The notes below the pieces were generated by a model. That model worked only from the letters and a program-made list of their open reading frames with translations. It did no database searches and was not told the origin of the DNA. From the NCBI RefSeq assembly GCF_024713945.1, contig NC_134679.1:4965001-5029000 (forward strand): a stretch of DNA of 64,000 nucleotides, read 5' to 3'. Made by a program: the position numbers and the translations under genes. Of the stretch, positions 5,593 to 54,908 are shown piece by piece (the first letter of the stretch is position 1; every line of letters starts with the position of its first letter). This DNA comes from Dermatophagoides farinae. Its lineage: Eukaryota > Arthropoda > Arachnida > Sarcoptiformes > Pyroglyphidae.

Positions 5593-8500
5593 ATGGCAGC
5601 CGATTTGAAGACATCGAAAACCATAGTTGATGAGCTTTGTGAACAGCTTGAATCTTCTACAACTAAGCCAAGTCAGAAATTTATCAATGGTACTCAATGG
5701 AATGATCTCAAAAGCGAACAAACTCGGGTAATTCTGTCTTGAATTTTTATTTATTATTATTATTTAGATTTCTAATTCTTATTCATATTAATTGATTGCA
5801 GACTTTACAAAATCTTGCCCGAGCTCATATTGATTCATTTAATTTCATGATAAATGAAGGTCTTCAAAAGGGCTTACAAAATTTGAATCCGATTGGATTT
5901 GAATTGGCTAATGGCGATAGGGTAGTTATACAGATTATGGACTGTGTAGTTTTACATCCAACTGTGCCGAATAAAAATGAAGTAAAAATATCATCACACC
6001 ATTCCCTTTGTACAAAAATCTATCCATCCGAATGTCGTATGGTAAAGACATCATATAAAGGCAAAGTTTTATTGACAATGAATTGGAGCCTAAACGGTCG
6101 AGTTCAGGACATTATTGAAGATGTTATTGGTGATATTCCCATCATGGTCAAATCTAATCGATGTAATCTGGAAAAATTGACTCGCAGTGAACTCATTCAT
6201 CGTAAAGAGGATTCAGAAGAGTTTGGTGGCTACTTCATAATGAATGGCAATGAATATCTTATTCGAAAATTGATTGCACAACGTCGAAATTACCCAATGG
6301 CCATCATACGACCTTCGTGGAAAGATAGCGGGCAATTTTTTTCCGAACACGGTGTATCGATTCGATGTGTACGAAACGATCAAATTGGCTCAAATATGGT
6401 TCTTCATTATTTGACTAACGGAACAGTCAAATTAAGATTCTTCTATAATCGTCAGCCAATATACTTGCCATTGATTCTTGTGCTGAAAGTTCTCTGTGAT
6501 GCATCCGATCAGTTCATCTATAATGAGCTAATCAAAACACGTGAAAATGATAATTTTTTTCAATCATGCATTGTTAACATGTTACGTTTGGTACAACAGG
6601 AAAAACTATACACTTCTAAACAAATCAAAAAATACATTGGCGAACGTGTTCGTGTTCGATTTGAAGCTCCAAGCTGGTATACGGACGAAGAGATTACTGA
6701 TAATCTATTCAGAGAATGTATTGCCGTTCATCTAAATTCAAATGTCGATAAATTTAATCTGTTGGTCTTTATGACACGAAAATTATTTGCCTTTGTTCAA
6801 CGCGAATGTGCGGAAGAAAAACCGGATAATCCGATGTTTCATGAGATTTATCAATCTGGTCATATCTATTTCACACTATTGTTGGAACGATTTCAGGTAT
6901 TTTTAAGTACCATAAAACAAGCGATCGAACGCCAATTTCAACAATCGCTACGATTTCGAGATGCCAGTTCCTTCACGTTGACGACAGCTATGGTACGTAA
7001 AGCGTTGACATCCAACTATCGTGAAATCACTCGACCAATGGAACATTTGATTACGACCGGATATCTTCGTTCGAAAACTGGCCTAGGACTAATGCAATCT
7101 GCCGGTATGGCTGTCAAAGCTGAAAAGATTAATTTTTGGCGTTTTCTTGCTCATTTTCGTTCTGTACATCGGGGTCAATTTTTCAGTGAAATGAAAACAA
7201 CAGCCTGTCGGAAATTATATCCAGAAGCCTGGGGTTTCCTATGTCCAGTACATACGCCTGATGGAGCTCCATGCGGCCTTTTAAATCATTTCAGTGAACT
7301 TTGCCAAATAACCAATCAACAACAGTCAGTTCGACATTTGACTTCAGTTTTAACTGGTCTTGGTATGGAACCATTAGATTCTCCAATAAAACCTGATTCA
7401 AATTATTTAAACGTTCTCTTGGATGGTCGAGCACTAGGTTTTGTTCACGAAAATTGTGTCACAAAAATTGTCAATCAATTACGAATGATGAAGACGACCG
7501 GTAAAGAAAAGATTCCGCTTACATTGGAAATAGGATTGGTTCCTCATACTGATAAACCAACACAATATCCAGCTTTGTACCTGTTTTCAACTCCGTCGCG
7601 TATGATTCGTCCAGTGTTCAATCTGTTAACACAAAACATTGAATTTATTGGAACGTTCGAACAATGCTATATGGACATCTGTGTTACAAGTTCAGAGATG
7701 ATACCCGGTGTTACAACACATCAAGAAATTCGCGAAACAAGTTTTCTAAGCATTCTTGCCCGACAAATTCCGTATCCAGATTTTAATCAAAGTCCACGTA
7801 ACATGTATTCATGTCAGATGGCAAAACAAACAATGGGAACAGCAAGTCATACACTTCGATATCGATCAGATAATAAGATGTATTCTATACTTACTCCTCA
7901 ATCACCATTGGTTCGAACATCTGCATACGACCACTATGCACTTGATAATTACCCGCTTGGAACCAATGCTGTTGTTGCTGTTATCTCATACACTGGATAT
8001 GATATGGAAGACGCTATGATTTTGAACAAAGCTTCAGTTGAACGAGGGTTTCAGGCCGGTATTATTCACAAGACAGAGGTAATCGATCTTTATGAATTGG
8101 CTGGGCTTCGGTCAACACAACAACAAGAACTGATGCTTAAATTCGGTTATGATCAATCGGTCGATGTTGATGAGAAATATGCGGGAATGTTCGATCAGGA
8201 TGGATTGCCATTCATCGGAAGATTAGTTTGTCAAGATGATCCAGTTTGTGCGTACGTGGACATGGTTGAAAATAGGACCAAATTTCATAAATACAAAAGT
8301 TCCGAGCCTGCATACATTTTTGACGTGAAAATTTTAAGTGATGGTGATGAAACACGAATTGTCCGAGTGGCCATATCATATTTATTACGACGATCACCGA
8401 TAATTGGTGACAAATTTGCCAATCGTCACGGTCAGAAAGGTATTTGTTCATTTTTATGGCCTGCTGAGGACATGCCATTTACCGAGAGTGGCATCATACC

Positions 8501-9282
8501 TGACATTCTGTTCAATCCACATGGCTTCCCTTCTCGTATGACTATCGGACAAATGATAGAAACATTGGCCGGAAAATCAGCTTCGATGCATGGCTTAGTT
8601 CATGATTGCACTCCGTTTACATTTTCCGAGGATAATCTTGCTTCGGATTATTATGGTAAATTATTGGAAAGTTATGGTTTCAACTATTATGGAACGGAAA
8701 AAATGTTCAGTGGAGTAGATGGGCGTGAGCTAGAGGCTCAAATATTCATCGGTGTAGTATACTATATTCGTCTACGTCATATGGTTGGTGATAAATACCA
8801 GGTACGATCAACAGGACCAATCGATCAAATCACCCATCAACCTGTAAAAGGGCGGAAACGAGCTGGTGGTATTCGTTTTGGTGAGATGGAACGAGATTCT
8901 CTTCTTGCTCATGGTACAACATTTTTACTTCAAGATAGATTGTTCAATAATTCTGACAAAACTCTGGTAAGAGAGATTATCATTAAATATTGAATTATTT
9001 TCATTTCATTAAAATAATTTGATCTAGGTTCATATGTGCAAAAAATGTGGCTCGATATTATCACCATATTTGTTTTCGACAACCACCAACAAGAACAATG
9101 TCAATGATGGGATAGACGGTGAAGCTATTGGTGATCCGGAAGCAGAAATGATTCAATATTGGACATGTAAACTCTGTGATTCAGCTGAACATATTGTCAA
9201 AATAGCCATACCGTTTGTTTTACAGTATCTAGTTGCCGAATTGGCATCGGTGAATATCAAAGTGAAATTCACGGCAACTTAA
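5593..9282 (+). CDS. POLR1B: DNA-directed RNA polymerase I subunit RPA2
   Basis: Second-largest subunit of RNA polymerase I, which transcribes rRNA in the nucleolus. Three exons: 5593-5727, 5802-8966 and 9028-9282, giving 1184 residues, against about 1135 in vertebrates. Boundaries are CTCGG/GTAATT, TTGCAG/ACTTTAC, CTG/GTAAGA and TCTAG/GTTCAT, all in frame. Family landmarks include AHIDSFNFM at the start, the Pol I-type block GGYFIMNGNEYLIRKLI, WGFLCPVHTPDGAPCGLLNH, the active-site region GYDMEDAMILNKAS near residue 780 and GDKFANRHGQKG near 915. The C-terminal zinc ribbon uses Cys1104, Cys1107, Cys1147 and Cys1150. The Pol I-specific sequence separates it from RPB2 and RPC2. The ATG at 5593 is the first in frame near the conserved region. 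The promoter is shared with QRSL1. Confidence 0.96.
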
Positions 9283-9482
9283 TTATTGAAATTGTAACTA
9301 AATTAATTAAAAAATGAAATGAAATAACGAAATGGTTTTGAAAATTTGTATGTTTAACTTGCATGGTATAAATCGGGCATATATCAATGTGATCAATGTA
9401 TGCAGCTGTGTGTGATGAATTTTTTAATCGCGCGCGTTTTATTTACTCAATGTTGTGTTTATAAGTTGTTCAATCATCATCC

Positions 9483-10085
9483 ATGGATCTGAATCAAGTT
9501 CAACAAAACGTTAATAGTAATGATGATGATGATGATGACGATGAAATCGATATTTATGCTGATTTAAATTTTAATTATGAACAAACAAAATTTGAAAAAA
9601 AATCATATGAAGAAGATTCCGATCAACTTTTTGATGAGCTTCAAGTTTATGGGAAACTTTATCGTCTTGAAACTGAAATCACTAGATTGACAAAAGAAAA
9701 TGCTACTTTAAGTAAAGATAATGAAACATTACGAAAACAGATTTCAATTAAAGATGGCCAATTAAAGGTATTGAAAAATAATATATCATCATTATATAAG
9801 ACAGCTAAATTAGAATTGGATAGACGGCTGTCGGAGAAACAAGAGCTTCAAAATCAATATGATGCATTTGTGTTTCGAAAAATTAAAAATTTCGAAATTC
9901 AACGTCAACTACAGCAACAGAATATTCATTCGATTCCTGATAATATGGTGACACCAGATTCTGTTGATCGTGATGAAAAATTACGGCAAAACAATAAACG
10001 AAAAAAGTCCTTCCACAATGACAAAAATGTTTCCATCAACAATGGCCATGGTTACAAGTGGAAACGATCACCATCTAATCGATGA
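9483..10085 (+). CDS. acidic coiled-coil protein resembling the FLASH (CASP8AP2) N-terminal region
   Basis: Single-exon, 200-residue protein starting at an ATG in CCATGG context. An Asp run (residues 14-20) leads into EIDIYADL. A Leu/Glu-rich coiled coil follows from about residue 55 to 130 (LETEITRLTKEN, then LKNNISSLYKTAKLELDRR). The tail is basic with a candidate nuclear signal NKRKK. The order of an [LI]DIY motif, coiled coil and a 'KTA.LE..R' block recalls the N-terminus of FLASH, which binds LSM11 and recruits the histone pre-mRNA cleavage complex through an LD[IL]Y motif. This is pattern recall, not an alignment. The rest of the very long vertebrate FLASH is absent. An AATAAA is at 10272-10277. 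If the match fails, it is an unassigned nuclear coiled-coil protein. Confidence 0.6.
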   Translation: MDLNQVQQNVNSNDDDDDDDEIDIYADLNFNYEQTKFEKKSYEEDSDQLFDELQVYGKLYRLETEITRLTKENATLSKDNETLRKQISIKDGQLKVLKNNISSLYKTAKLELDRRLSEKQELQNQYDAFVFRKIKNFEIQRQLQQQNIHSIPDNMVTPDSVDRDEKLRQNNKRKKSFHNDKNVSINNGHGYKWKRSPSNR

Positions 10086-10559: not shown

Positions 10560-11070
10560 CATTCGAGTTATAAAAAGCCATAATAATAATCATAATCATA
10601 ACGAAAACGAATGAAAGCAATAATAATAATAATAATAAACGGCCATGCATGGCAAAACAATTGCTGCTTGGTCGGATATTTTTCTCTACTACCTCTCTCT
10701 TTCTCTCTCTCTCTCTCTTTTTCCGTTGAAAGAAGAGATCAAAACTGATCAAATTTTATAATAAAACCTTTCAATATTATTGACAACGAAAAACCATCAT
10801 CAATGGCACACGTACGTTATAGTCATAGGGAAAAAAAACATCATATACACACGCACTTGTCCCAATAAAGGACATTTAACCATATCAGATCAATTGAAAA
10901 TTGTCCTTATAGATATGACAATGAAAAATTTGTTGGTTGGTTGGTTTGTTGGTTGAATTTGCAATCTGAAACTTTCAGGTCACCCAAATGGTTAGATTTG
11001 ATTGGGGGGTTGGCTATTACATACACACAATATATAATATGGAAAAGAATTGGTCTGGTCTATATTCTCT

Positions 11071-11099: not shown

Positions 11100-12124
11100 G
11101 ATTTGCCTCGGTTCTATTCAAGTCGTTTGTACGTTGCCTATCATCATCATCAACATGGTATATAATAATAATAATAACTTCAGACTCTATCTCAATCGTA
11201 CGAAAGACTATTTGCCATTTTTTCGTTGTTTTGTAATTGTTATGTTTGAACTGTTCTCGCCATAATAATAATAATAATAATAACAATAATAATAAACATT
11301 TTTTTTTCTCCATATTCGAATCCACACAAGGAGACAAGATGTTTAGCTCGTATTTTATTATTATTATTATTTTCATTGGTTCATTCGTCGAATAACAATA
11401 ACGATAATAATATTAATGAATGATGATCATGATGATGATGATGATGAAAAAACAATCTCAAATGGATGAAAATGGATGAAAATGAATGAAAAATGTTTGT
11501 GTCATGGTCAAAAATATTTCGATAGATTCTTTTATTTTAAATTTTTTGAAAATTTTTTTTTTCATTAATTCAATCTGATCATCACATTGTATTATTCTTA
11601 TGATGACTGACACATATATCGATATTCGAATCTGAATTTTAAATCACCGCCATAGCAATTGCTAGTAGTGGCATTCGATCATGATAGGTTTCATGGTATA
11701 CAATAAAAGGATACAATTGTTTGGATATCCGCAACATACTGCTACCACGGGTTAAAAGTACTACTACTGTCAATGACCACTAGTATTCATTTATGCTACT
11801 CAGCTTTAAACTTTCTCTCCCCGTACAGATTGGTATCTTCTCAAACATAAACAAAATTTGGGATGGAAAGAATTTCATTTCATTCATAATATTTCGACGA
11901 TCATCATAATTTATAATTCAAATTCAAATTTATATAATAATGCTAATGAATGCTGTTCGTTATGTAATTGTAACACGAATTAATTGATCATTTAATTTGA
12001 TCTCGACAAAGTTTCCATTACGATTCTTAAGTGATCGTAATTATTATCATATATATAGCCAATATTAAAGAACAAAAAAAAATTAAAGCTGTATACCAAA
12101 ATTTTCTCACCACAATCATTTCAG

Positions 12125-13932
12125 GCGGCTTCACAGATCGCACACGATCTGTTGACCGGAAAGATTGATAACATCCACGTGGCTGCTGCGGCTCAGGCTG
12201 TTCATTCACATTATCAACATCATCATAATAATGACCAACAACAACAAACGCATATCATTGATCAGCCGAATCATCCGCATCATCATCATCACCAACAACA
12301 ACAACAACAACATTCAAATGGGCCACCTTCCATGTTGTTCACACAACATCAACAAAATTCCGATCTCAAACGTGGACGTGGAAGACCGCGAAAAGAAATG
12401 GAAACATCCAATAAAGATACATCGAATAGTTCGACATCATCTTCATCGTCATCGTCATCGATCAAGTCATCTTCCAAGACGAGAAATAATCGTAATGGTT
12501 CAGCCAAAAAACTCTTTCCATGCGATTGGCCCGAATGTGGTATGTGGTTTTCGCAATCATCTAACCTAAACAAACATTACTTAACTCATACGAATGAAAA
12601 GCCATTTAAATGTTTATGGCCAAATTGTAATAAAAGTTTCAAACAAAGTTCCAATCTGAACAAGCATCGATTTGTACATACAGGTTTGATTTTCATTCTT
12701 TAATCAATAACACTAATCTGATCTGATTATATTTATCTGTATATAGGTGAAAAGCCATTCGCGTGTGATTATCCTCAATGTACTAAACGCTTCTCTCAAT
12801 CATCCAATCTTAAAAAACATAAATTAGTCCATAGTGGTAAATTGTTTATTGAAACTTTAAATCATTTCAATCTTAATATTATTAAGTATCTTCATCATTT
12901 TTCACAGGAGAAAAGCCATACAAATGCCAATACCCAGGCTGTACGAAGATGTTTGATCAATCATCGAATCTAAATAAACATTACCTGACACATATGGGAC
13001 AAAAACCATATCAATGTCAAGATTGTGGTGATAAATTCTCACAAACATCCAATTTGGCCAAACATATGCGTAAACATGGCCGTAATGATTGTAGTAGTCC
13101 GCCTTTATCTCCCATAATTGCCGATCAACCAAATCGATTGATTAATCATCAAATGCCATTGTTTATGACGACCGATAATAAGCGAAATCCAAATTCGATT
13201 CAACCACATTCACAACAGCAACAGTTGACAGCAATCACTACCTCGAATTGTTATCATACTAATGGACAAAACAATGGTAATCAGTCACACCATCATCATG
13301 TTCCTCATCTATTGCATGATCCAAATGATCAACAATTGACGTCCACACATACATCATCAGATCAATTGGCTGGTTCTATTCGAATACATAATGCAACAGC
13401 TATGGCACTATTCAGCAACCATAATCCCAATAATCATTCTAATCACTCCCGATCATCGACAGCAACAGCTACACCTGTATTTGTTACAGATACGAATAAA
13501 TTTATATCTGGTTTGTATTTTATACAATTCCTTAAAGACGTTCTTAAAATTTTACTTTTTTGTTGTTGTTATATCGTATTTATAGCTCATAATTTTCTGA
13601 CACCGACGTCACGACCATTGGCCATACCTCCATATATTTCATCGCCATCACAGGCGGCTTCGGATTCTATTTCTACGACAGCAGTTCCAGTAACGACCAG
13701 GACCAAATCCCAACCAAATCGAATAGTGGATTCACCACATTCAACTACATCTCATTCGTTTACACCGTCACCTAATCCATCCACCTCGTCTTCATCATCA
13801 TCACAACAACATCAATCATCTCAACAGCAGCAATCATCTACATCCACGTGTCATTCTTCCGTGGCAGCCATTTCTGCTATTATAATTGAAAATAAAACAT
13901 CTAGTAAATCAACTTCTACTACGAAAACATAG
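12125..13932 (+). CDS. five-finger C2H2 zinc-finger protein with AT-hook (5' end missing)
   Basis: Nuclear DNA-binding protein. Four exons are seen: 12125-12683, 12747-12836, 12908-13510 and 13586-13932, giving 532 residues in frame. The first exon starts after TTTCAG with no ATG, so an upstream exon is missing. Order: an Ala/His/Gln-rich stretch, an AT-hook ([10 protein letters not shown]), a Ser-rich linker, then five C2H2 fingers. Fingers 1-4 have C-x4-C spacing (as in CDWPECG) and finger 5 has C-x2-C. Two introns cut the H-x-G/EKP linkers in phase 1, a common zinc-finger gene pattern. The helices read [28 protein letters not shown] and QTSNLAK, so nearly the same triplet is predicted for each finger. 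The Ser/Thr/Gln-rich C-terminus looks like an activation or interaction region. The family is not named with confidence. AATAAA is at 13990-13995. Confidence 0.85.
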
Positions 13933-14147: not shown

Positions 14148-16803
14148 TTATGTCGTTTTTGTGCCACCGCTATTCTCCACATTAGCTACATTGGTCACTG
14201 TAATGGTTGGCTGTGATGGCTGTTCAATAGGTTGTGGTGGTTCTGCCGATTTCAACTCGATCATTTGCTGGCCATCATCTTCATTATCATCGTAAAGATT
14301 TTTAATACGTCCAGCCAGGCAAATAGTACCGCATTCAAGTATAACACCGATCATCAAGAATGTAAAAGCACTCATATGCATGTAGATACGATATTTATCA
14401 ATATCATATAACCAACAATTTCCAGTCTTTCCACAGGATTTTTCCCATATCAAACATGTTGAATCGATAATTGTACCAAAGATCAATGGATAAGGTATAA
14501 ATGCAAACACAGCGAATACTGTACCCATGATGCCCATAGCAAAACTTTTATCCTGTGGATCAACTGATCGTAGTGTAATGAGCGTATCACCTGTTCTAGC
14601 TGTCGATGCAATTGTATTTGACAAGGCAATCAAGGTGATGTACATGGGGAAACGATTACAATCAGTTTGACAAAGACCGGATGTGGTTACTTGCGGTGAA
14701 GGTACACAGCTACAATTGTGAAATGTCTATAGTACACGATGGAATAGGTTAATAGGAAGAATCAATCGGTCATTTTTTAATCATATAATCTTACCACAAC
14801 TTCATGACCAGGCAAATGAAATGATGACTTACATCCGGCAAAACAGGGCGAAAAAAAATTTGTATCACCGTCCTTGATACATATCGGTTGATATACTTCT
14901 CCAGTACATCCACAGTCCCGATTGCAACGATAATCATGTTGATTCAATCTTATCAAAAATCAATTATTCTAAGTATGATCAAAAAGTAATATAATCGCTC
15001 ACCCATATGGATTCTGTGATAAACTTGGATTCAATTGTTCTAGCCCAAAAAAGTGTGGCGTGGGACATTGTAGGAACATTCCACTGAAAATGGCCAACGA
15101 TGATAACAGTTCAACTAAGACGACAAAAACGGCTATACTACGTGCGTTTGGACGGAATTGTCGAATGATTATACCACCGGCCATCGTTCCAATAGCCATG
15201 GTCAAAACAGATGCAGCTCCTTAAACAGATATAAAATATGTGCATTTATTTTTGATCGATTTATCAAAACTAAATATACCAGTGAAGAACGAAGCACTTG
15301 ATGCTGATTGTCTATATTGAAGCTCAATGTATTTTGGTTTGACAATATAATACCCGAGATATCCAATGACACGAAATACGCCACTACACATGTGACAGAT
15401 GAGCAATGAATTCTTGGAGAATCGAAGAAAAGCTTTTCGAGCATCTGTGGACAATAATAAATCAAATTATTAACAATCAAATTCAAAGCAATATTTTCAA
15501 ACGAACCTTGAATAGTGGAAATGTTCTCTGAGGTAGATGATGATGAGATGACCGCTTTAGCTTTATCTTCGTCTGCTCGATTATCAGTGTCTGCTGTATC
15601 GGAAGTTTTACTTTTATTAAGTTCTTCCTTGGCGAATGATTTTGGAAATAAAAACATTGGAAATGTAAATAGTAGGATGAGTGTGCCAAGAATAAGAAAA
15701 CCGATCCACTATATTGATAAAAGACATTAAATTATGAAATTTCTGTTCTCTAATCTAATTATCAAACTTACCCAGGCTCCAATCCAACGAGGATCATGAT
15801 TATTGAATGATGGTGGCACTAAATGTCAAATTAAAATGACAAAAACAATTCAGCAAAAAATAAAATCAACAAATGACTTACACAATGGATTTTCATAAAA
15901 TTGCAGACAAATTGATGACAATATAAATCCTAAAGCTGGTCCAAGCAATCGAATAGTAGATATACTACTCAAATAAACTGGTGAATTTTTTTTCTTAATA
16001 TTATCATCAATGTGTGGCAATCCGATCGTATAGAATGCTGTATATCCTAATCCATTGAAAAAACATGAGAACCATAAAAGGACCACGGCTACTATGACAG
16101 TCGAATGTCCTTCATGATGTTCACAGAATGCAGTATCTTTAGCTCCACACATTTCAGAATTTGTAACTGAAGTTTTATTGAAAACTTGCGAACCAAGATG
16201 TGAAGCTGTACCGTAGATGAAATAAGGGGCAGCACTTAGGAAGCAGGAAAATGCAACAACTAATTCCCCCAAAGCAATTAAACGGGATCGATTATACTTT
16301 GAACCTAAATAGCCAACAATTGGAGAGACAACCATTTGGCTTAGATTATCTGCAATCAAAATGAAACCGGAAATCTAATGATAATAATGAAATAATAAAA
16401 ACAATAAGTAAGAATTGATCTTGATTGATTCTTCTTGATCGCTGCTACTTTTGTTTCGAAAGCATAACGCTTTTCTAGGGTGGATATGATGCCGACCATG
16501 TAAGTGAATAATGCTCCTTGAAAAATAAAAAAAAATAAAAAATAAAAAAATTGAAAAAATTGAAAAAATTGAAAAAAAACCTTGCAATATCGCCAATATG
16601 GAGAAATTTAAGACGAAAAAATTGGCCGAGGCAAAATTTTGTAGAAATTGGGGCCGAAATGTCCCAATACCACAAGTCACTTCTTTCGAGCTTAAAATTG
16701 TCGCCGAACGTAGTTTTCTTGGCACTTGAAGATGTTGATCATGACCGGTTTGTTCACCGGTCGTTCCGGTATCTGTCACACCATCACTGTTGTTTGTTGT
16801 CAT
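14148..16803 (-). CDS. organic anion transporting polypeptide (OATP/SLCO family), copy A
   Basis: Twelve-TM plasma-membrane transporter of amphipathic organic anions, 715 residues. Nine exons: 16803-16581, 16516-16449, 16374-15882, 15818-15772, 15708-15507, 15444-15280, 15219-15003, 14948-14795 and 14726-14148, summing to 2148 bp in frame. Family signs: the RSATILSSKEVTCGIG N-terminus, IADNLSQMVVSPIVGYLGSKYNRSRLIA in TM2-3 (conserved parts ADNL and GYLG), DPRWIGAWW before a central TM, and a Kazal-like Cys-rich extracellular loop (exons 8-9, with CNRDCGC, CFAGCK and CSC). The last exon holds FAFIPYPLIFG. It lies in tandem with copy B, same strand, 1.1 kb between them. Exons 1/2, 2/3 and 6/7 are fused in copy B. 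Substrate is unknown; in mites such genes may serve xenobiotic or hormone transport (inference). Confidence 0.93.
15819..15881 (-). other. 63-bp intron 3 of OATP copy A, conserved in copy B
   Basis: This intron matches the equivalent intron of copy B (19495-19557) at 57 of 63 positions without gaps, including a 24-base identical core. The adjacent 47-bp exon matches at only 38 of 47. If retained, it would add a short conserved tail ending at an in-frame TGA. Confidence 0.8.
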
Positions 16804-17607
16804 TATGGTTAATGAATATATTGTCTTTCCAGAATACGATTGATATTATCGGAATCACAATGATGATCCGTTTTTCAATTTGAAGAAAGTCCTTAACCTT
16901 TTTGGGAATCTAATTCGGTTACGACTGTATGTGATTTGATTTCAGATGATGGCCACTAATTGATCATGGTTACTAAATCCATCTAAAATAAAATGACGAG
17001 ACTACATGTACTAGCAGCGAAGTGCGTGTGTGTGTAAAATCATTAATTTGTCACTGATGATCATTCTTGGCTATTGCAGCAAAAAAAAAATAAAAAATAA
17101 AAGTTTCCCATATCTGGTTTAAGATTGATGATAATGTAGGCTCGAATATTGAATGATTTACTCATCAAATATTATAATCATTATCAGAAATATCTGTAGT
17201 AAACGACTGAACTGTCACTATTTTAGCAATCGTATTCTTATCTCAATCAAAACACTATAGCCAGAACAAAATTTTCATTATGTATGAATGACAAGATTTT
17301 TTGATAACCATCCATCATTTCGATTAAAACAATGATTACAACAATTGTATCGAATTTCATACTCGTAAATATCTTTGTTTCATTATTTTTCATCCAATCA
17401 CTGTTGTGGCCAAGTTTTTGACTCCATATATATTCAATATAAATGATCATATTACTGATCATTTAAATATTGTTTATTATTGATTTAATCGATAATTTTA
17501 GTTTTGAATTGTTTTTCAAAACATCTTGTTTTTTAGTAATCGGATAATATATACCGTTCACTAGTTTATAAATCTTTGTGTCGGTTATAACTTTCCGGTA
17601 ATTTATG

Positions 17608-17638
<31 letters not shown>

Positions 17639-17941
17639 ATTCTATTTAGATTGAATCGTGGTAAAGGTTCAATGAATTCTTCAAAATTTGATAATTAGAA
17701 CAAACCAGATTATATTTCCGGGTAAATATTGAAATTTTTTTTTTCACTATCGATAGGTTTCAGTGATTAGATTTCCATTTTTTATAATAATGTTCGCCTT
17801 TTGTTTATGCGACCAGCAAAAAAAAAATCAACAGAAAAGTCCATTTCATTAATAAAAAATGAATGTTTTATATAAAAAAAATGATTTATATATTATATTG
17901 AATCAAATGCAAAAAAAGCAGATAATTTTGTAAACTAAAAT
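16804..17941. other. spacer between OATP copies A and B
   Basis: 1.1 kb without a supportable gene. It holds the presumed promoter of copy A, a (TG)n tract near 17026-17035, a (CA)n run at 17608-17636 and the 3' UTR of copy B. Several open frames here are low-complexity and not convincing. Confidence 0.5.
17608..17636. repeat. (CA)n microsatellite
   Basis: Perfect 29-base CA run downstream of the OATP copy B stop codon. Confidence 0.95.
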
Positions 17942-20344
17942 TCATTCGGATTTGGCTTGATTATTGTCGTCGTCGTCGTCATCGTTGTTGTTGTTATCAT
18001 CATCTTCAATGGATTTCAATTCAATCACATGGTTATCATTTTCTTGTTCATCTTCATATAGATTCTTAATACGTCCAGCATAACAGGCTGTACCAATTTC
18101 AAATAAAACACCCAACATAAGGAATGTAAACGCTCCCATATGCATGGATACCCGATATTTATCAAGGTCATATAGCCAACAATTACCCGTTTTTCCACAG
18201 GTTTTTTCCCATATCAAACAAGTTGAATCGATGAGAGCACCAAAAATCAATGGATATGGTATGAATGCGAATACGGCAAATATGGTACCCATTATACCCA
18301 TGGCAAAACTTTTATCCTCTTGATCGACAGCTCTAAAGAGTTTAATCAAAAGAGTTGAAAGAAAAAACAATAAATTCCATTATTATTTATACCTTAGTGT
18401 CAGTAGTGTATCTCCTGTTCGAGACAACGAAGCGATTGTATTGGAGATTGCAATCAATGTGATATACATTGGAAATCGATTACAATCATTCTGACAAAGA
18501 CCAGATGTCACAATGCTTGATGTTGATGATGCACAAGAACAATTATGAAAAGTCTATATGAATTAATTAGATTAAAATCAATTATTTGAGATATTATCAT
18601 TATCATTGCCAAATACCAATATTCCAGATCCTTGATCAGATATGATGGCTTCTTTACAACCAGCAAAACAAGGGGAAAAGTAATTCATATTTGATTCTAG
18701 ATTACATACTGGCTGATAAACTTCAACAGAACAATCACAATTCTGATTGCATTGAAAATTATTTGTCGATAATCTATGTAGAATTAGAATAATAAATGAT
18801 AAAGATACGAGCTTCTATAACTTGAAACTTACGGATTGATACTAGGATTCATTTGTTCTAAACCAAAAAATCGTGGCGTCGGACATTGCAAAAACATGCC
18901 ACCGAAAATGGCCACAGAACTTAGAAATTCGACCAACACGACAAATATAGCTATAATTCTTGCACTAGGTCGTAATGAACGAATCATCAATCCTCCGACC
19001 ATCGTACCGATAGCCATTGTGGCCACTGACGTAATACCAGTGAAAAATGATGCACTCGAAGCTGATTGTCTATATTGCAGCTCAATATATTTAGGTTTGA
19101 CGATATAATAACCCAGATAACCGACTAATCGAAAAACGCCACCAATAATATGACATAGAAGTAGCGAATTTTTCGAAAACCGTACAAATCTCTTGCGTAC
19201 ATCTAATCAAACAATCAGAAGATCAGCGAATAAAAATTAGAAAATTTTATACCTTGAAATGTAGAATCATTTTTATCTCTCTTAGTTTCCGATTCTTCAA
19301 TCTTAATGAATGATTTTGGAAAGAAAAACATTGGTATGGTGAATAAGAAAATCAATAGGCCAAGAACAATGAAACCGATCCACTATAAAGTAAAGAAATA
19401 AAAATGGATTTATTTCATGTTGAAATGATTAATTTGTTTTTTCATACCCATGCTCCTATCCATCTGGGATCACGATTATCAAATGAAGGTGGCACTAAAA
19501 ATCAAATTGAAATGACAAAAACAATTCAGCAAATAATAAAATAAACGAATGACTTACTCAAAGGATTCTCATAGAATCGTAATGAAATCGATGATAACGT
19601 AAATCCCAAGGTTGGTCCCAGCAAACGTATAGTAGAAATAGTGCTTAAATAAAGTGGTGAATTTTTCTTCTTGATATTATCATCAACATATGGTAAACCG
19701 ATGGTATAAAAAGCCGTATAACCTAAGCCATTTAGTAAACAAGCGATCCATAGTATAACGACGGCTGCAATAACCGTTGATCGTCCACCACCACCGTCAA
19801 TATCGTTGACATCAAGCTGACAAGATGATGAATCTTCTATCACTGAACATAAATCAAAATTGATTGAAGATGAAGAACTATTAGTGTAGCCATGTGATCC
19901 AAGGTGTGTGGCTGTACCATATATAAAGTATGGCAAAGCACTTAGAAGACAGGAAAGTACTACAACCATTTCACCGAATGCAATCAATCGGGAACGATTA
20001 TATTTAGAACCAAGATAACCCACGATTGGACTGAGAACCATTTCGCTCAGATTATCGGCAATGAGAAGAAAACCGCTGACTTTCGTTTCGAATGCATAAC
20101 GTTTTTCCAATGTGGAAATGATGCCGATCATATAAGTAAAAACGGCACCTTGCAGTATCGCTAATATGGAGAAATTGATGACGAAAATTTTGGCGGAAGC
20201 AAAAAAAAATTGTGGTTGAAAGCCACCAATACCGCAGGTAATTTCTTTAGAACTTAAAATTGTCGCCGAACGTTCAAGCTTTCTTTGGTCATTATTACAG
20301 TTATTATTATCATTCGATGAGACTGTATTGCCATTGGTTGCCAT
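17942..20344 (-). CDS. organic anion transporting polypeptide (OATP/SLCO family), copy B
   Basis: Paralogue of the neighbouring OATP, 680 residues. Seven exons: 20344-19558, 19494-19448, 19382-19253, 19202-18833, 18773-18617, 18553-18393 and 18332-17942, summing to 2043 bp in frame. The same landmarks occur: RSATILSSKEITCGIG, ADNLSEMVLSPIVGYLG, GLGYTAFYTIGLPYVDD, NRDPRWIGAW, a Kazal-like loop (CNQNCDC, CFAGCK) and FAFIPYPLIFG. Exons that are split in copy A (1/2/3 and 6/7) are continuous here. Conversely, this copy has an extra 60-bp intron (18392-18333) inside TLR/AVDQ, which copy A lacks. The C-terminus is a run of Asn and Asp, unlike the Pro/Thr-rich end of copy A. Tandem arrangement and shared intron sequence indicate a local duplication. 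Confidence 0.93.
19495..19557 (-). other. 63-bp intron 1 of OATP copy B, conserved in copy A
   Basis: Counterpart of 15819-15881, the same length and nearly identical. Other shared introns of the pair, for example 15709-15771 against 19383-19447, show no comparable similarity. Confidence 0.8.
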
Positions 20345-20700
20345 TATTATTTAATCGTACAACCGTATCACGAGGTTCGTAAGAAAAAAATGGCCCATGC
20401 TAATTTATTTTTTCGAGACCTGATCAATTTTCGCAATGATATCATGACCATAATAATCATATCATATTATGGCTTCTTTTCCTCAACCGTATCTTCAATG
20501 ATAAACAAATTATATATTAGTTCCTCAATCAAGTGATAACCAAAATCGGTTAATCATGCAAAAAAAAATCTTTTTTTTATTACCGATTGCTAACTTGAAA
20601 AACATACTAATAAACTATAAAATTGTAATCAATTAAAATGTGTCAATCAAATCTATAGTATAAATATTGATATATATTCAATAGTAAGATAATCGAAACC
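20345..20700. other. spacer between OATP copy B and TTC19
   Basis: 356 bp of AT-rich sequence with the presumed copy B promoter and the TTC19 3' UTR. No gene seen. Confidence 0.5.
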
Positions 20701-23388: not shown

Positions 23389-26300
23389 TTAATGTGCACA
23401 TTGAGCCGTGTACATTTGATAATAGATTCTTCTTCGTTCAATCAATTGATCATGTGTTCCTTGTTCGACTACACGACCGTTTTGTATAACAAGAATCCTA
23501 TCCACATCTCGGATGGTTGATAATCGATGAGCAATAACCAAACATGTTCTTCCTTTACGTGCTTCATCCAGTGCTTTCTGTACGGCTTTTTCGCTTTCCG
23601 AATCTAATGCACTTGTTGCTTCGTCAAGTAACAATATCTTCGGATCGCGTATCAATGCACGTGCTATAGCTATTCGTTGTTTTTGTCCACCACTTAATTG
23701 AGCACCTTTGTCGCCCACTGATGTATCATAACCTTTGGGTAATGATTGAATGAAATCATGAATATAGGCAGTTTGCGAGGCTCGAACAATTTCGGACTGG
23801 TCAACAAGACGAGAATTATCACCATAGGCAATGTTTTCTGCGATTGTTTTGTCAAATAGTACTGGCTCCTGTGAAACGATACCAATCTGTGATCGGAGCC
23901 AGGCAATATTAAGTTGATGAATATTGTGGTCATCGACAAACACGTCTCCGTGTTCGTAATCATAGAAACGTTCCAATATCTGCATACAAGTACTTTTTCC
24001 ACACCCAGATTCACCGACCAGAGCAACTGTTTCGCCTTGACAAACTTCAAATTCGATGCCTTTCAGCACACGAACTTGAAGACGACTTGGATAACGGAAT
24101 TCCACTTCTTTAAATGCCAGCTCTCCTTTACATTCATTAGGTTTATCGCCAAAAATAGAATTTACCACAATGGTCGGTATACGATCAAGTAAACGGAATA
24201 TGGCAATTGCAGCAATTTTGCCTTTCTGATAATCTGATGAAAAAGCCACAGATTGTCCAATCATATTCGTACCAAAAAGAACAGCTTCAGTACTTTTGAA
24301 AAGTTCAGAATAAGAAAGCTCATTCTGGATGATCAATCGACTTCCATAAAAAAGAGCAACAGAATAAGCAACATTGAAAGACATTTGAGTGAAGCCGAAC
24401 GTAAAACTTTTGATATGAGGTTCAAGACGAGATTTTCGGAAATCAACATCCAATGCAGTCTGATAATTGATCCAAAATGTCAATTCCAAATGCAAAGATG
24501 CTACGGTTCGAATGTTGGAAATGGCTTCGACGGCAATTTTGGTTGCTTCTTCTGATACTTTACGTTTGGATATGTTCATTCCCATGATAATTTTCATTTG
24601 AAAGTAGACAGAAATCAATATTACTGGTACGAAACACAACATTACAAGGCTTAGTTTCCAACAATAAAACATCGATATAACAATTCCGGCTGTTAATATT
24701 GATACGGTTTGAGCCATTACTGATAGACGAGAACCAGTTGCACCTTGTACAGCGGATGCATCACTAGAGAGTCGAGCACAAAGAGCCCCGGTCGTATTTT
24801 CTGGCTGATCAAACCAAGCCACTTCTTGTGAAAGAATGGCACGAAATACGTCGTTTCGCATACGATATGTTAGATTTTCCGAACTGATTCCATACAAATA
24901 TGATTGTAAAAATTGCAATATGCCCGAAATAATTCCCATGGCCAAAAAAATCAGAGCATATTTCAATACATGATCCAATATGTAATCAGGATCAGGAGCA
25001 GCAAGTACTCCAAGAACTTCACCAAAAATAAAAGAAAAAACTGGTATACTCAAACCAACGATAAATGAAAATATTGTAGCTGTGATCAAGTAGCAACGAT
25101 CGGGCATCACTGAACGAATCAATCGTCGCAGTGGTAAACTCTCCTGTTCCAAAGATTTCTCATCATTGTTTGGGCCATCTTCGTTTCCATGTGCACTCGA
25201 TATGGATGTTTGTACAGTATCGATAGATTTGCTTCTTTGGGCATATGCGATAGATCGTTTTCGAATTCCATCTTGCAACTGTCGTTGTTCTTGTTCTTCG
25301 TCTTGATTCTGTAATCTTGCCATATTGTAATAGATGCCTTTAGCGTCGATCAATTCTTGATGAGTACCAGATTCTTTGACTCGTCCCTGATCAAGAACAA
25401 GAATCTTATCGGCATTACGAATTGTCGACAATCGGTGAGCTACAATGAATGTGGTACGACCAATACTAGCGCGGTCCAATGCTGCCTGAACGATTTTTTC
25501 GCTTTCTGAATCCAACGCCGATGTCGATTCATCTAGCAACAGAATTTTCGGTCGTCTAATCAATGCTCGAGCTATGGCAATACGTTGCTTTTGTCCACCA
25601 GACAATTGAGCTCCTCGTTCACCAACCAATGTATTGAATTTGTCGGGTAGATTTTGTATGAAATCATAAGCGTTGGCTTCTTTCGCTGCCTGAACCACCT
25701 CCTCAAAATTGGCTTCCGGATGACCAAATGCAATATTTTTCTCGATAGAATAGCCAAACAAAACCGGTTCTTGTCCTACGACGCCGATTTGATCACGTAA
25801 CGAACCGACATTTAAATCTTTTATATCATGTCCATCGATCAATACTTGTCCTTTATTAGTATCATAAAAACGTTGAATCAATTGCATGATTGTTGACTTT
25901 CCATTGCCAGAAGAACCAGCGATTCCAATGGTTTGACCAGGTTCAGCATCCAAGTTTATACCATTTAAAATAGAAACTTCTGGGCGAGATGGATAATTAA
26001 AATGAACATTTCGAAATTGAACTCGACCACGAATCTGTACTCGTTTTCCTAACTGTGACAGTGAATCGATTTTTGGTTTTTGCTGAATGATTTGAAAAAT
26101 ATTGCCAAAAGCACCACAAGCTCTGCCAATGGCTTCAAAATATGGAGATGTTTGACCAAGACTAAATGCACCCATCAATACGTTGAAGAAAACGATCAGC
26201 ATATTACTAGCTTGATATTTTGGTGGCGTTTCACCATTCTTGATGGATCGTACAATCAAACGTGCACCGTACCAGAACGATAAGCCATACGATGAATAAA

Positions 26301-28277
26301 TGGCAAAATACATAATACCAAGACTGATACCAGTAAACATGCTACGACGGATTCCATTACGACGAGCAGGTTCAATGTTTTTATTGTATCGTTCAATTTC
26401 TTTTTGTTGTCCACCAAACGCATGCACAGTTCTATCAAATTTAGAACGATATTGTTTTAATAAAATAAAAGATGCTATCATCATGGTTTACCTGATCAAA
26501 TTAAACACTTCTTCAGCAATTGCACCGGCTTTACCGTAAGCATTCGATTCACTAGCTGCAAATTTTACTTGAACCTATGAAAAAATAAAGTGATATATAT
26601 TTTAAATAAAATCTAAATGAAATAATTGCAAAAATTAAGCAACCTTTCCGATAACAGCAAAAGCAATGCCAAGTACTGGCATAATGGACATTGTGACCAA
26701 AGTTAATTCCCAACCATGATAGAATGCAATGCAGATTGAAAAAATTAACGTTGAAAACGACATGATGGTAAGGGCGACTTTGTCGCCCATACCTTGTTGC
26801 ACTAAATTCAAATCACTATGAAAAAAAAACACGAATAAATGAGAATAAAAATAAAACAACTTGAAACATACTTGGTCAATTTTGAAGCAAAATCACCCGA
26901 TGCTTTCGTATCGAACCAGGCGATATCTTGATGGATTATTGATCTAAAGAATAATAATTTGATTCGATATACTTGATTACGTGCGGCTTGTTCCCAAAGG
27001 CCTAAAGCGAAATAATCAAGAATACCAAAACCGATTGCAATGAGTGCCATATAGAGAGCGTAAAGGCCGGAATCGGTACGAAAATTATCAACATATAGAG
27101 TTCCATTATGAAATATCGAATCATTGAATATGTTGACAATATGTTCAACACTGAGGCCAGTTCGTGAACGTAGTTGATCAAAATCGCTTTTATCATCAAA
27201 ACTATTGTAGTATGCGGCCGTCAAATTATAAAACTCATCAACATTATTGATGTTTGTTAAATTTTGTTCATAAAAAGTATCATATCCAGGTGGTTTGTTG
27301 GTGGCAAATTGATGAAATATATCATATTCAACAAATATATCGGTTAAATGGCCCATAACCAGAATAATGGATGGAAAACCAAGGCCAAGACTAAAGGCGA
27401 AAAAAATTCCGCAACCAATGAATATTTTATCCAATGTCGATGCATAACGAAACTATAATGTGAAACAAGATAAAGAAAAATTTATTTTCATTTTTTAAAA
27501 TAATTTTTTATCATTTGATTTTTTTTTTTGTATACAATCGCAAATCTTGATCACAAAAAAAATCAATCAAATAAACCTATGAGCTTAGATTGATGGTGAT
27601 GACAGCGATAAGAAACAAGCATGATTATCACCTTTTTTTTATTAGAAAATAAAAAACATCAAAGCATTTAATCCGACTTGTTTAACACATACAGACTTAT
27701 GGTCAAAAAATATTGAAATGTAAAAAGTACTAACAAAAAAATGTACTGAATGATTTTTTTTTTTGTTGTTCTTAAATCAAAATTGTTGAGAGAACATAAA
27801 AATCAAATGATTTACAAGGTCATTTATTATATATATGATATGATGATTATGATAATGATAATTACCAATTTAAAAAATGAAACTGATTTAACTTGGTCAT
27901 CCTTATTCTTTTTTTCTTTATCATCTTTAACAACCATCACTAACGTATTGTTTTCATTTTTTTCGGTTTTAGTTGGTGGATCAAGATTGCTGAATTTTTT
28001 TGGAAAAAAAAATTTTAATTCAATTAATTCTGTTTATAGAAAAGATTTTTTTTTTGAATCAATCAAATTACCTATCAAGTTGTATAACATTTTTGTCATT
28101 TTGTTGGTCATTTGTATGATTTCTATTGTTGGATTGATGATTATCTTTTAAATCGATTGATTGAAAAGAAGACATTGATTCTGTTCGTTCATTACTATCG
28201 ATGGGTGGTGCTGGTGGTGGATTCGATGGTGGTGTATCACTATCATCACCAGTACCAGTATTATTGTTCAATACCAT
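23389..28277 (-). CDS. ABCB-type full ABC transporter (P-glycoprotein family)
   Basis: Complete TMD-NBD-TMD-NBD exporter of 1402 residues. Six exons: 28277-28072, 27989-27866, 27452-26872, 26815-26644, 26574-26492 and 26431-23389, summing to 4209 bp in frame. The Pro/Asn-rich N-terminus precedes SFFKLFRYASTLDK, the usual P-gp entry to TM1. The first extracellular loop is long with several N-x-T/S sites. NBD1: Walker A GSSGNGKST (561-569), signature LSGGQ (665-669), Walker B with catalytic Glu690. NBD2: Walker A GESGCGKST (1195-1203), LSGGQ (1301-1305), Glu1326. All ATP-site residues are present in both halves, so active drug or lipid export is expected. Subfamily B1-like is an inference from order and linker; the substrate is unknown. 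In mites, P-gp is often discussed for acaricide tolerance. Confidence 0.95.
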
Positions 28278-43173: not shown

Positions 43174-45819
43174 CAATGTACAAAGGTTTAGAATTAATGG
43201 GTTTTTCTAGTTGCTGTTGCCGTTGTTGTTGTTGTAGTTTTTGTTGTTGTTGTCGATCTTTTCGCTTCGCTATTCATTATTTGTTGTTGTTGATGTTTGT
43301 TTGGTCCAAAAATACATACATACACTTTTTTTTACATAAACCGATTAGCATCATCATGTGAAAGACAGTCACAACAAGAATGTAATAATAATAAGAAATA
43401 AATATCTTGTTTCGCCTTGTTTCTTCTTCTTCTTCTTCGAATGAAGCAAAAATAACGAAAAGTTTCAACAAGCTTTGAACTTTTTTTTTAAATATAATTC
43501 ATTCTGATGAAAGGATTCCTGTACAAGTCTTGCCAATGTTTGTGTGATGTTTTTAAATTTCGCTTCTACGACAACAGCAACAACAACAACAACAACAAAA
43601 CAGTCAAATTCTTTAAACGAAAATCATCAAAAAAAAACATCACACTAGTGATTTATGTTTAATGTGTTGTTTGGATGATGGCAATGGGAAAAGAAAATCA
43701 CACCTTATTGAATCTGACTTTTTGTGGTGATGAAAACTTGAGATTCGGTTTTTTTTCTGTTTGGTTTTGATTCTGAAGATTTGGTATAAGATCGACATTG
43801 TATGCCTTTGTCATATATTGGTCTTAAATATCGAGATAATAGCATTGAATAAATGGATTTTTCTAGAACCATTTCAGTTTAATGTGGTGGTTTCTTCAGA
43901 CAAAATAAAAATCGTTAAGTTTTTTTTAAGAAAAAAAAATTCATAACAGCTTGTAGAGTGTGTGAGTATGTGTAACACGTTTCAGAATGAAACTTTTTAT
44001 TTTTTCAACTGGATTTAAATTCATCAAATAATGAATTAATTAATGAATAATGGATTCTTTTTTTCTCTCTCTACATTAAGTGCCTCGTCTTGAACGTTGC
44101 ACGTGAACCATCATCATCATCATCATCATCATCACCATCACGCATAGAAAAGAATCTTCAATTGAGAACAACCCCTTCTCCCGTTTTTTTTTTGCTGGGC
44201 ACGAATCCTTTTTGTAGAATATTAATGAGAATAAGTACGTGAATCATAATGGTACTACAGAAATAATGAAAAAAAAAAACAGAATAAGAAGATTGTGTTG
44301 ATGGAGAGACTCAAATTAATTAGATGTTGGCATCTTCTTTTTGTCGGGTTGGAAATTTTTTTCGAATGGAATTCTGGTAGCTCTCACGTTTTTTTACACT
44401 TTTTTTTCTCTTTCTAACACATGAGTTAAATAAAATAGTTGTGTGTGTTTGGTAGCTTTACCGGTGGTTTTTTTTCTGGTAATGAATCTCATTCTTCATT
44501 CATGTTGGGTGTGTTTTTTTTTTCTTTTTCGATTATTGTTCCTTTCTTGGGATTGACACCAAATGGTGGCGATGGTGGTTGACTGTAATGAATTTTCAAT
44601 CAACACTTTTTCTTTTTCTGATTAAATATATTTGGTGAGGTTTTTTTTTTTTTTTTTTTGGTTGTTGTTGTTGTTGTTGTGTTTTTTCTTTTATTGGTTC
44701 ATTGCATCTGTATTATTATAGCCTATATTTAATTTGTATGGTGATGGGTGGTCATAAATGTATGCAACAGTAAAAAAAAATTATTCCTCAAGGCTAGATT
44801 GTATTTCCTGTAATAGAATTTTTTTTTTCGCCCACTAACTATATTCGGATATACCCACCCACCTACCTATCTATCACAATTCACAATAGATAGACTACTA
44901 GTTTGAGTTCTTGTTTTTGTTTCGTCGAGTATAGTATAATATATTAATAATACACCCATTCGATAAAGTAGCTTGTTCCGGCTTGACACTCAAAATGAAA
45001 TCCATACCGAATGTTTGAACGGAAATGAAGAAAAAAAATATGGAAAGTGAATGTTTGTTTGTTTGTTTGGTGAAAATAATATTTCCTCTTTGATTACGAG
45101 GAAATTTCAATGACTTTTTTTTGTTCCATCATCTTCATTCAAGAATATTTTCCATTACTCAAATATAAACTATTTTGTCATTTCAATTTTTTATTCTTTG
45201 ACACCCACACACACACATGTAGACATTATTCCTATATGGATGGCCAAATCGTACATATCCAGGAGCGACAATAGGTAAACGTATCATGGGTTTACGAGTG
45301 GTGAGCTGTAATCATCTGGAATCAATTTCAATGGCTGTACCAAACATTGTTCGTGTGATGCCAGCAGGCAATATTACACTTGGCAAGTAAGTAATATAGA
45401 AAAAAAAATTTTCTTGTGTTTTTCTTCTAGGTAGATGTGTGTCATGAAAGTTTTCATTATGATCCGATATATATCCGTATTATATGGAACGAAATTTTCA
45501 ATTTTCAAATGTTTGTTTGTATTTTTTTTTTCTTTTTTTTGCCACATTCAGAGCATTCATACGAACATTGATAAAATTAATGCCAGTAAACAATACTATT
45601 CAAAGTCTTTACATATTAACTTCACGTTATAATCGATCATATTTTGATAAAAGAATGGGATTATTAGTTGTCGATATGTCAGCTCCGGCTATGGCACAAG
45701 TTGCAGCAGTTATGACTACAACCAACACTAATAACACACCGGCAAATCCACTTCCTCAGCAACAGCAGCAGCAGCAACAACAACAACAACCACCGAATTT
45801 GAATCGTGCATTTTTGTAA
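30190..45819 (+). CDS. FAM8A1: FAM8A1-type RDD-domain membrane protein, five exons over 15.6 kb
   Basis: ER membrane protein of the RDD family; FAM8A1 is a cofactor of the HRD1 ERAD complex. Exons 30190-30592, 37721-37856, 41791-41935, 45223-45386 and 45552-45819 give 1116 bp, 371 residues, with matching phases throughout. The N-terminus is disordered and Asn/Ser-rich, then LNLWIWQCQTWIYFHGAYHA. The RDD region starts at SSIRKRLLAGMIDYFFIHF (Arg and Asp of TM1), continues through an extra acidic loop (FFPEDDDGLEDLLPK), TM2 and the box TIGKRIMGLRVV, and ends RYNRSYFDKRMGLLVVD. A Gln run and PPNLNRAFL close the protein. AATAAA lies at 46032-46037 and 46130-46135. Introns of 7.1, 3.9 and 3.3 kb contrast with about 65 bp elsewhere in the window; the fourth is 165 bp. 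Confidence 0.88.
31092..31117. repeat. (AAAC)n microsatellite
   Basis: Six near-perfect AAAC units in intron 1 of the FAM8A1-type gene. Confidence 0.9.
33997..34002 (-). terminator. poly(A) signal of the nested coiled-coil gene
   Basis: AATAAA on the minus strand, 50 bp downstream of the stop codon at 34052-34054. Confidence 0.5.
34052..34288 (-). CDS. small acidic coiled-coil protein nested in a FAM8A1 intron, hypothetical
   Basis: Not recognised. A 78-residue single-exon ORF starts at MEGKELTSYTLR and continues through DDIFDMIDQITLLSTML and IHKEFNEELETIIGIE to a Gln run and a stop. Leu, Ile and Met recur at heptad-like spacing over about residues 20-60, suggesting one coiled coil. Unlike the many spurious frames around it, its composition is balanced and not a translated simple repeat. 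A minus-strand AATAAA (33997-34002) lies 50 bp past the stop. The size and acidity recall small subunits of coiled-coil assemblies, but no family can be named. It lies antisense to the host gene. Confidence 0.55.
   Translation of the reverse strand: MEGKELTSYTLRTIADQKPDDIFDMIDQITLLSTMLNDIHKEFNEELETIIGIEMERFSMEKYKQKQQQQQQQKDQDS
35721..35745. repeat. (GTT)n microsatellite
   Basis: About eight GTT units in intron 1 of the FAM8A1-type gene. The unit recurs across the right half, for example at 37926-37946, 40824-40842 and 44661-44680. Confidence 0.9.
37857..41790 (+). other. intron 2 of the FAM8A1-type gene (3.9 kb)
   Basis: Bounded by CCATT/GTAAGT and TATAAAG/CACAAC. Contains the longest homopolymer of the window (T33 at 40569-40601), (TG)n and (GAT)n tracts. 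No exon or nested gene is supportable. Confidence 0.75.
40569..40601. repeat. poly(T) tract of 33 bases
   Basis: Uninterrupted T run, the longest homopolymer in the window. Confidence 0.95.
41936..45222 (+). other. intron 3 of the FAM8A1-type gene (3.3 kb)
   Basis: Bounded by TATGAG/GTAAGG and CATGTAG/ACATTA. Holds (ATT)n at 43140-43169, (CAT)n at 44109-44132 and several poly(T) runs. No gene seen. Confidence 0.75.
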
Positions 45820-52628: not shown

Positions 52629-54908
52629 GGCTGTTTGGTAATTTTGTTTGGGTGTATATCACATATTTTTTTTCTGGGCAAATAATAATTAACTTGTCGG
52701 ACAATATTTTAGTTATTTCTTTCTTACTATTCACATTCATTCATATTCGTATGCCTGGCTAATTTATTGTCACAATCAACTGAGTTTTTGTTTTTTGTTT
52801 TTCATTTAATTCTTTTAATGTCCAAAATGTCCTTGAAGTATTAACCCTAGCAATGATGATTATTGTAATAATCATATACCAATGTATATGTAATGGTAAT
52901 GATGCTTGCCATGTATTCATTCATTCATATCATATCATAACCATAGATAGAATTGAAAGAAAAAAATCATTATCATCATCATCATTTTTATCCAGAGAGA
53001 CCCCATGTTGCCAGAAAAAAATATATGAGAACTTTATTTCGATAACTCTATCCAAAAGAATTGATCATGAATCTTATAACGTATATATGTATGTATTATA
53101 TTCCCTGAACAATGCCAGACACAATAGTCATCAGGGTCATATAATCATATATTACCTGATTGAATAAAGACATCAACAAATGACAAGTAAAATGAAATGA
53201 TTAGACCATATTGATGATGATGCTAAAATTTATGTGTGCTCACTGGTTGGTTGATTGGTTGGTGGCCCTAAGTAATTGAAAAAAAAATTTTTTTGTGTGT
53301 GTGTGAAAAAATGCTCAGCAGAGTAGCTTTGGTCAGTTTTAGTTGATGCAAATGTTGTTTACCTTAAAATTGATGAAAAAAAAAACAGTTTTTTCCCAAT
53401 GCTTTGGTAAACTCAATTCTTTTATTTGGTTTCTATCATCATCATCATCACCACCACCAGTGGAAAAAAATCAAATTCGCATTCTAATTCAATAGAATCG
53501 AATATTTTCTTTTTTTATAAAAATCTCTCAATCATAATAATATCATATATATCATCACATGTGTTTCGCTTTATTTAAGTAGCCCGAATTGAACACGAAA
53601 TTTTACTTAGTTTTATATCATCATCATCATCATCATCATTAATAATAAGTAGGAGGATGGCAAAAATAAAGTTCACTTTTTTTTGAAATGAAGATGTGAT
53701 TTTGATTTCCATTCAATTTGATTACTTTATCGATGTTTTAAAGACAAAATTCAAAAAAGTTTGTATGACGAATCATACAGCCTACACACGCACACACACA
53801 CACAACCAAGGTGGAATTTTTTTTTGATGTTTTGGGAATTCTCGATATATTCTATTCATATAAAACATTCTTGTTTTCAATCACAATATTATAACGAGAA
53901 TATCTTGGTCAAATTATTATTATTAAGATTTTTTTTCTGGAAAAAAAATTATCATCATTGTCGGTCAATTTTTTTTTGCTTAATGATGATGATGATGATG
54001 CAAATTGCTTAAGGTCTATTCGTTTGTTGGTCAGTATGTTCCATTTTGAATGTATAGACGGCAAATTATTGCTTGTTGTTTTTTTTTGATGATGCTTGCA
54101 AATGAAACTTTATTTTCCATCGGGGGTATGTTGTCTAATAATTTTCTCTTTTTTTCCAGGTTCCCATAGGATTGTTGTCCGCCGATTTTGATTGGATTCA
54201 TTTTGAAAACTTTTTTTTCTATCCGATTCAAAACTACCATCTGGTCATATGTAGTTTCGGTTTGAATTTCTTTGTTTTTTTTATACAACAGTTTCAGGAT
54301 TCATAATTTGCCGGATTTTCGCAACGGATCATCATCATCATGCCCGATTGGTATCAAAATAAACGAACCGAAATTAAATTATCGCCTATTGTATAGATCT
54401 GTTGTCGTTGCTGTTGTTGTTTGTTTCCCAAAATTCATGCATTCCTTTTTTTTATTCTGTTTCGAAAAAAAGAATTGGTGATGTGTTGCAACGAAAATAG
54501 CCAATATTTCATCCTCGAGCATATTTTTTTCTCTTTACAATCTTTTCACCCTCTTCGATCGTCAAATGAATTCTCTCAGTGATCAGAATATCAACGAAAT
54601 AAGAATGTTAAATTAATTTTATCCACTAGAATTTCAACTCAATTCAACACTAAAACCTTCAACAAACAACAAAGTCCATTGGCCTCTTTCATTTGAATTT
54701 CGTGTATTGTTTGTGTGTGTGTGTGTCTGTATTTGTGTTTATCGTGCTTTTTCTTTATTTATTGGTTTTGCTTATGATCCTGGAACAGGATCTCAAATTT
54801 TAATCTTGTGTTTGTTTTAGTGTGTTTGGTGTGATAGTGATCATCATCTTCATCATCATCATCATCATCACTGTGATTATAAAATCATAAACAAAAACAG
54901 CAGTCATA

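Follow-up and report, generated by a model that had tools for sequence, protein, structure and literature searches.

Arrays of C2H2 zinc fingers bind DNA in the antiparallel orientation, and thus finger 1 of the designed protein 1MEY contacts the 3' triplet of its site, GAA. ZNF410 has five fingers, four of the CX4C type followed by one of the CX2C type. The Drosophila proteins D1 and Prod bind their satellites. The site recognised by 1MEY has been reported as G(A/G)G(G/T)C(A/G)GAA, and the protein was co-crystallised with GAGGCAGAA (PMC10036435). The engineered helix QSSNLVR is paired with GAA in a published table, where the helix row is printed in the opposite direction to the target row (PMC9705829), and also in the output of a design tool (PMC5260015). 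According to a review of the C2H2 code, G is read by Arg, Lys or His and A is read by Asn or Gln (PMC12264921). The nearest functional parallel to the protein described below is Drosophila CLAMP, which recognises a 15-bp GA-rich motif, for which its authors suggested the use of five of the six fingers (PMC4945028). CLAMP is likewise a natural C2H2 array on a long purine repeat, but it reads the dinucleotide GA and not GAA and has a six-finger domain. Short tandem repeats are used as enhancers by the KLF4 mutant K409Q (PMC9391581). It resembles our proposal as a C2H2 protein acting through such repeats and differs from the protein described here in being a three-finger disease mutant and in its repeats (GGRT-type and a 19-bp unit).

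We analysed a window of 64,000 nt from Dermatophagoides farinae (NC_134679.1, positions 4,965,001-5,029,000 of the forward strand, GCF_024713945.1); the assembly that contains it has 22 contigs and 62.4 Mb. A spliced finger gene is visible on the plus strand over 12125-13932, with its 5' end absent. Its splicing was deduced from the DNA alone, by GT-AG sites and the reading frame. Four coding exons can be seen (12125-12683, 12747-12836, 12908-13510 and 13586-13932, all on the plus strand), and they join into 532 residues in frame up to the stop codon. The first of them (12125..12683) encodes a His/Gln-rich segment, an AT-hook-like motif, a Ser-rich segment and fingers 1 and 2. This exon is preceded by a tttcag acceptor, and the frame upstream is open to 12059 but contains no ATG; one or more 5' exons must therefore be missing. 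Within the window, no convincing candidate for the start exon was found upstream of 12125. A phase-0 candidate at 10803-10811 (MAH) was rejected as too short to be trusted. Neither a scan of 12100-12200 for bacterial-type promoters nor a tRNA scan gave anything, and both have little bearing on this gene. The GT...AG sites and the continued frame place predicted introns at 12684..12746 (+) in the linker between fingers 2 and 3 and at 12837..12907 (+) in the linker between fingers 3 and 4. Both introns are short and in phase 1, and both interrupt the Gly codon of the linker. Another predicted phase 1 intron (13511-13585, +) lies in the C-terminal tail (13078..13932, +), which is of low complexity, rich in Gln, Ser, Thr and His, and ends at the stop codon. 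The order along the protein is thus the His/Gln-rich segment, the motif KRGRGRPRK, the Ser-rich stretch, five C2H2 fingers and the Gln/Ser/Thr-rich tail.

Several other genes were seen in the window. The second-largest subunit of RNA polymerase I, with the Rpa2-specific Pfam domain, is encoded upstream of the finger gene at 5796-8993 (+). The ORF between the two genes (9465-10085, +) appears by eye to encode a coiled coil and matches no Pfam family above the cut-off. Just downstream of the finger gene there are two adjoining genes for OATP/SLCO-type transporters (14148-20350, -), a fragment of each of which matches Pfam OATP; they are probably tandem duplicates. Large ABC-transporter ORFs at 23389-27452 (-) have, judged by eye, the appearance of a P-glycoprotein-type gene. 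An aquaporin-type exon (Pfam MIP) is located at 54891-55409 (+).

The five fingers occupy 12521..12589 (finger 1, helix QSSNLNK), 12611..12679 (finger 2, QSSNLNK), 12764..12832 (finger 3, QSSNLKK), 12925..12993 (finger 4, QSSNLNK) and 13015..13077 (finger 5, QTSNLAK) on the plus strand. The first four are of the CX4C type and the last is of the CX2C type. Pfam zf-C2H2 (PF00096) matches five stretches of the protein with E 7e-22 and 77 bits against the curated 25.2, and the C2H2 fold of the array is not in doubt. Gln(-1), Asn(3) and Lys(6) are present in every one of the five helices. The fingers, their helix sequences and the sameness of these three positions are exactly as the original prediction gave them; the interval that it assigned to them, 12500..13075, does contain the fingers but ends 2 bases before the end of finger 5. 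Every linker has five residues, as in arrays that bind contiguously in the major groove, and the exact canonical TGEKP is found in only one of the four (TNEKP between fingers 1 and 2, TGEKP between 2 and 3, SGEKP between 3 and 4, MGQKP between 4 and 5). The AT-hook that had been proposed together with the fingers corresponds to KRGRGRPRK (12368..12394, +). This motif has the GRP core but scores 13.6 bits with Pfam AT_hook, over profile positions 1-9 of 13, which is under the cut-off of 17.4; we refer to it as AT-hook-like. On the same stretch, RFX5_DNA_bdg scores 16.7, also below its cut-off of 27.

Among proteins of solved structure, ZNF410 (PDB 6wmi) gives a single alignment that covers the whole array (residues 4-148 of 151, E 1.7e-34). 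The two proteins also share the five fingers and the order of the CX4C and CX2C types. However, finger 2 of ZNF410 has Val at both +6 and -1 (PMC12264921), where the array described here has Lys and Gln. The same base-contact residues are not found in ZNF410, and we regard this as a likeness with no claim of orthology.

A closer precedent for the helices is finger 1 of 1MEY, which aligns as FSQSSNLQKH and has the helix QSSNLQK with Gln(-1), Asn(3) and Lys(6), and all five fingers of the array are of this type at the three positions. At -1, 1, 2, 3, 4 and 6 its residues are those of QSSNLNK and QSSNLKK. In contrast to the array, 1MEY is a designed protein in which three fingers carry three different helices, and its target is not a repeat. 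The claim that each finger should read about GAA therefore agrees, as a prediction, with the 1MEY precedent, with both tables that pair QSSNLVR with GAA and with the code review. Since the linkers have five residues and the helices have these precedents, (GAA)5 is a sound prediction of the site for contiguous binding. Natural arrays include fingers that serve as spacers or that cross the minor groove, and cross-strand contacts also occur in them (PMC12264921). Five good helices thus need not yield a 15-bp motif.

We compared the array with other fingers of the same genome. The control sample consisted of 60 other finger regions, the best of 137 listed places down to about E 4e-9 (three of the 137 were the finger gene itself). 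From these regions 210 fingers were extracted with a strict pattern, which drops atypical fingers, and the sample covers part of the repertoire. The combination of Gln, Asn and Lys at -1, 3 and 6 did not occur among the 210 sampled fingers. Gln, Asn and Arg occurred in 8 of them, in other arrays, and by the code these would be expected to read GAA too; Gln(-1) together with Asn(3) was present in 21. Single fingers of the GAA type are therefore ordinary and the GAA triplet itself is not special; the unusual part is the uniform array. At least three fingers were found at 47 of the 60 sampled loci, and at none of these 47 was one triple common to three fingers: 45 had no repeated triple and 2 had one triple used twice. 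The chance that two random sampled fingers have the same triple is 0.009, and 200,000 random draws of five sampled fingers produced no uniform set.

Uniform helices could arise from recent tandem duplication of a finger. When the five fingers are compared in pairs, 59 of 70 comparisons of helix residues show identity, against 24 of 80 for the other non-zinc residues. At the DNA level, identity is 73% in the helices and 39% elsewhere, and of the 59 identities in the helices, 29 are encoded by different codons. On these values we rejected recent duplication as the cause of the sameness. They suggest instead that the sameness is old and has been kept by selection. The residues agree in every one of the 30 comparisons at positions -1, 3 and 6, with different codons in 8 of these. 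The fingers look like old duplicates in which the readers were kept at, or brought to, the same residues.

Searches for relatives gave little. A scan of viral contigs for orthologues gave no match, the 7 pattern matches in contigs of prokaryote genomes included no relative by tblastn, and an NCBIfam search with the protein returned nothing relevant. The helix strings QSSNLNK, QSSNLKK and QTSNLAK are absent from the texts of the open-access papers searched, and the excerpt of PMC3997970 contains nothing on them. Among the matches listed from the open-access literature there was neither a natural finger protein that binds GAA repeats nor the finger name QSNK.

We counted start positions of repeats on both strands of the whole 62.4 Mb assembly. 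Of the four trinucleotides that we counted, (GAA)5 came last with 1,651 positions, against 9,537 for (AAT)5, 42,790 for (AAC)5 and 60,812 for (ATG)5. (AAC)5 is 26 times commoner than (GAA)5 despite a near-identical base composition. The genome has a strong bias in its triplet repeats: GTA, which is ATG backwards, occupies only 1,150 positions against the 60,812 of ATG and is thus about 50 times rarer. Perfect (GAA)10 was found at 7 positions in 4 places of the assembly, with unassembled satellite as a caveat, and (AAC)10 at 704 positions. The first 100 listed of the 1,651 (GAA)5 positions make up 60 tracts, from which we extrapolate, on the basis of part of one contig, a total of about 1,000 GAA tracts. 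On this contig, C1, 53 of the 60 listed tracts lie below 3.75 Mb and 7 lie between 4.6 and 6.7 Mb; (AAC)10 also appears sparse in the middle of the contig. In 20 regions taken from the first tracts listed on C1, with one tract each, the tracts have 5-8 units. Two of the 20 lie in sense frames of at least 150 codons that encode Glu, and the sampled tracts bear no sign of function.

A search of the window for (GAA)5 that allowed up to 2 mismatches gave 8 matches, where shuffled sequence gave a mean of 0.29, and the exact matches form a single tract at 43421-43438 (-). None of the 8 lies near the finger gene, which gives no indication of autoregulation within the window. The count of GAA/TTC tracts, which had been proposed as a check, thus exceeds the shuffled control in the window but reveals short tracts of a minor class genome-wide: GAA tracts are real above-chance repeats but a minor class. 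The scarcity of GAA and the lack of long GAA arrays in the assembly argue against two parts of the original prediction, namely that the protein recognises satellite DNA and that it would be fitting for a genome with so many microsatellites, where it is ATG and AAC that are abundant. The scattered GAA tracts make a manageable number of single sites, in keeping with a transcription factor.

On balance, we favour the reading that the gene encodes a C2H2 transcription factor that is nuclear and sequence-specific. Its site would be 15 bp long and (GAA)5-like, and the factor would act at scattered short tracts, perhaps with the help of the AT-hook-like motif. The five fingers would follow one another in the major groove and take one GAA triplet each, with Lys(6) reading G, and Asn(3) and Gln(-1) an A each. 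The array would then prefer the 15-bp purine tract 5'-GAAGAAGAAGAAGAA-3' or something close to it, and finger 5 would take the 5'-most triplet. The neighbouring AT-hook-like motif may additionally hold AT-rich flanking DNA through the minor groove, and regulation probably resides in the Gln/Ser/His-rich arms. The roughly 1,000 short scattered GAA tracts would be the sites of action. A more specific version of this reading is tentative and, in our view, unlikely. It supposes a transcription factor dedicated to the GAA.TTC microsatellite, in which a tract of five units would form one five-finger site, tracts of 5, 6, 7 or 8 units would set the number of binding registers and so tune nearby genes, and GAA would be kept rare in a genome where repeats of ATG and AAC abound.

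The alternative that survives best, although we consider it unlikely, is a binder of A-rich tracts: if Lys(6) selects G weakly, the array would read (N/R)AA, in practice poly-A or mixed purine, and the protein would be a general chromatin or promoter protein of AT-rich DNA. Only two A per triplet are fixed by Gln(-1) and Asn(3), and Lys at position 6 is a less selective reader of G than Arg. RAA x5, with A or G as the first base, is also common, at 72,268 positions, and poly-A is present in many of those listed. However, Lys(6) has been retained in all five fingers. Moreover, 1MEY has the same Lys in finger 1, and in its reported site the G of GAA is fixed (PMC10036435); Lys is also among the listed readers of G (PMC12264921).

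Less probable still is an ordinary developmental C2H2 factor with only two or three fingers on DNA, or a binder of RNA or protein, whose motif would be short and not a repeat. The spacer and minor-groove-spanning fingers of natural arrays (PMC12264921) are consistent with it, as are the linkers TNEKP and MGQKP, which deviate from TGEKP. Against this, the DNA-contact residues are the same in all five helices while the rest of the fingers diverges, a pattern that would not be expected if some of them had no part in reading DNA. Finally, a coat protein of GAA satellites or long microsatellite arrays, of the chromocentre or heterochromatin type and aided by an AT-hook as in D1 and Prod, is very unlikely: uniform helices suit a repeat, the protein does carry an AT-hook-like motif, and AT-hooks are often found alongside major-groove domains (PMC11354804), but this motif is under the Pfam cut-off, (GAA)5 has the lowest count among the four repeats, and the abundant cognate satellite that D1 and Prod have is not seen here, with perfect (GAA)10 at four places against 704 positions for (AAC)10, satellites outside the assembly being the caveat.

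Taken with the favoured reading, that of a transcription factor on scattered GAA tracts, the protein looks like an unusual gene switch and not like a satellite-DNA protein. The expansion of (GAA)n is the one that occurs in Friedreich ataxia, and a natural compact GAA reader could therefore serve as a useful probe. The protein is an unusual, testable variant of the well-known C2H2 kind. Should the predicted binding hold, the protein would represent in nature what engineers build as modular polydactyl arrays, its five near-identical readers having been maintained by selection. It would then offer a clean test of the C2H2 code, and also of the idea that a transcription factor may read how long a microsatellite is.
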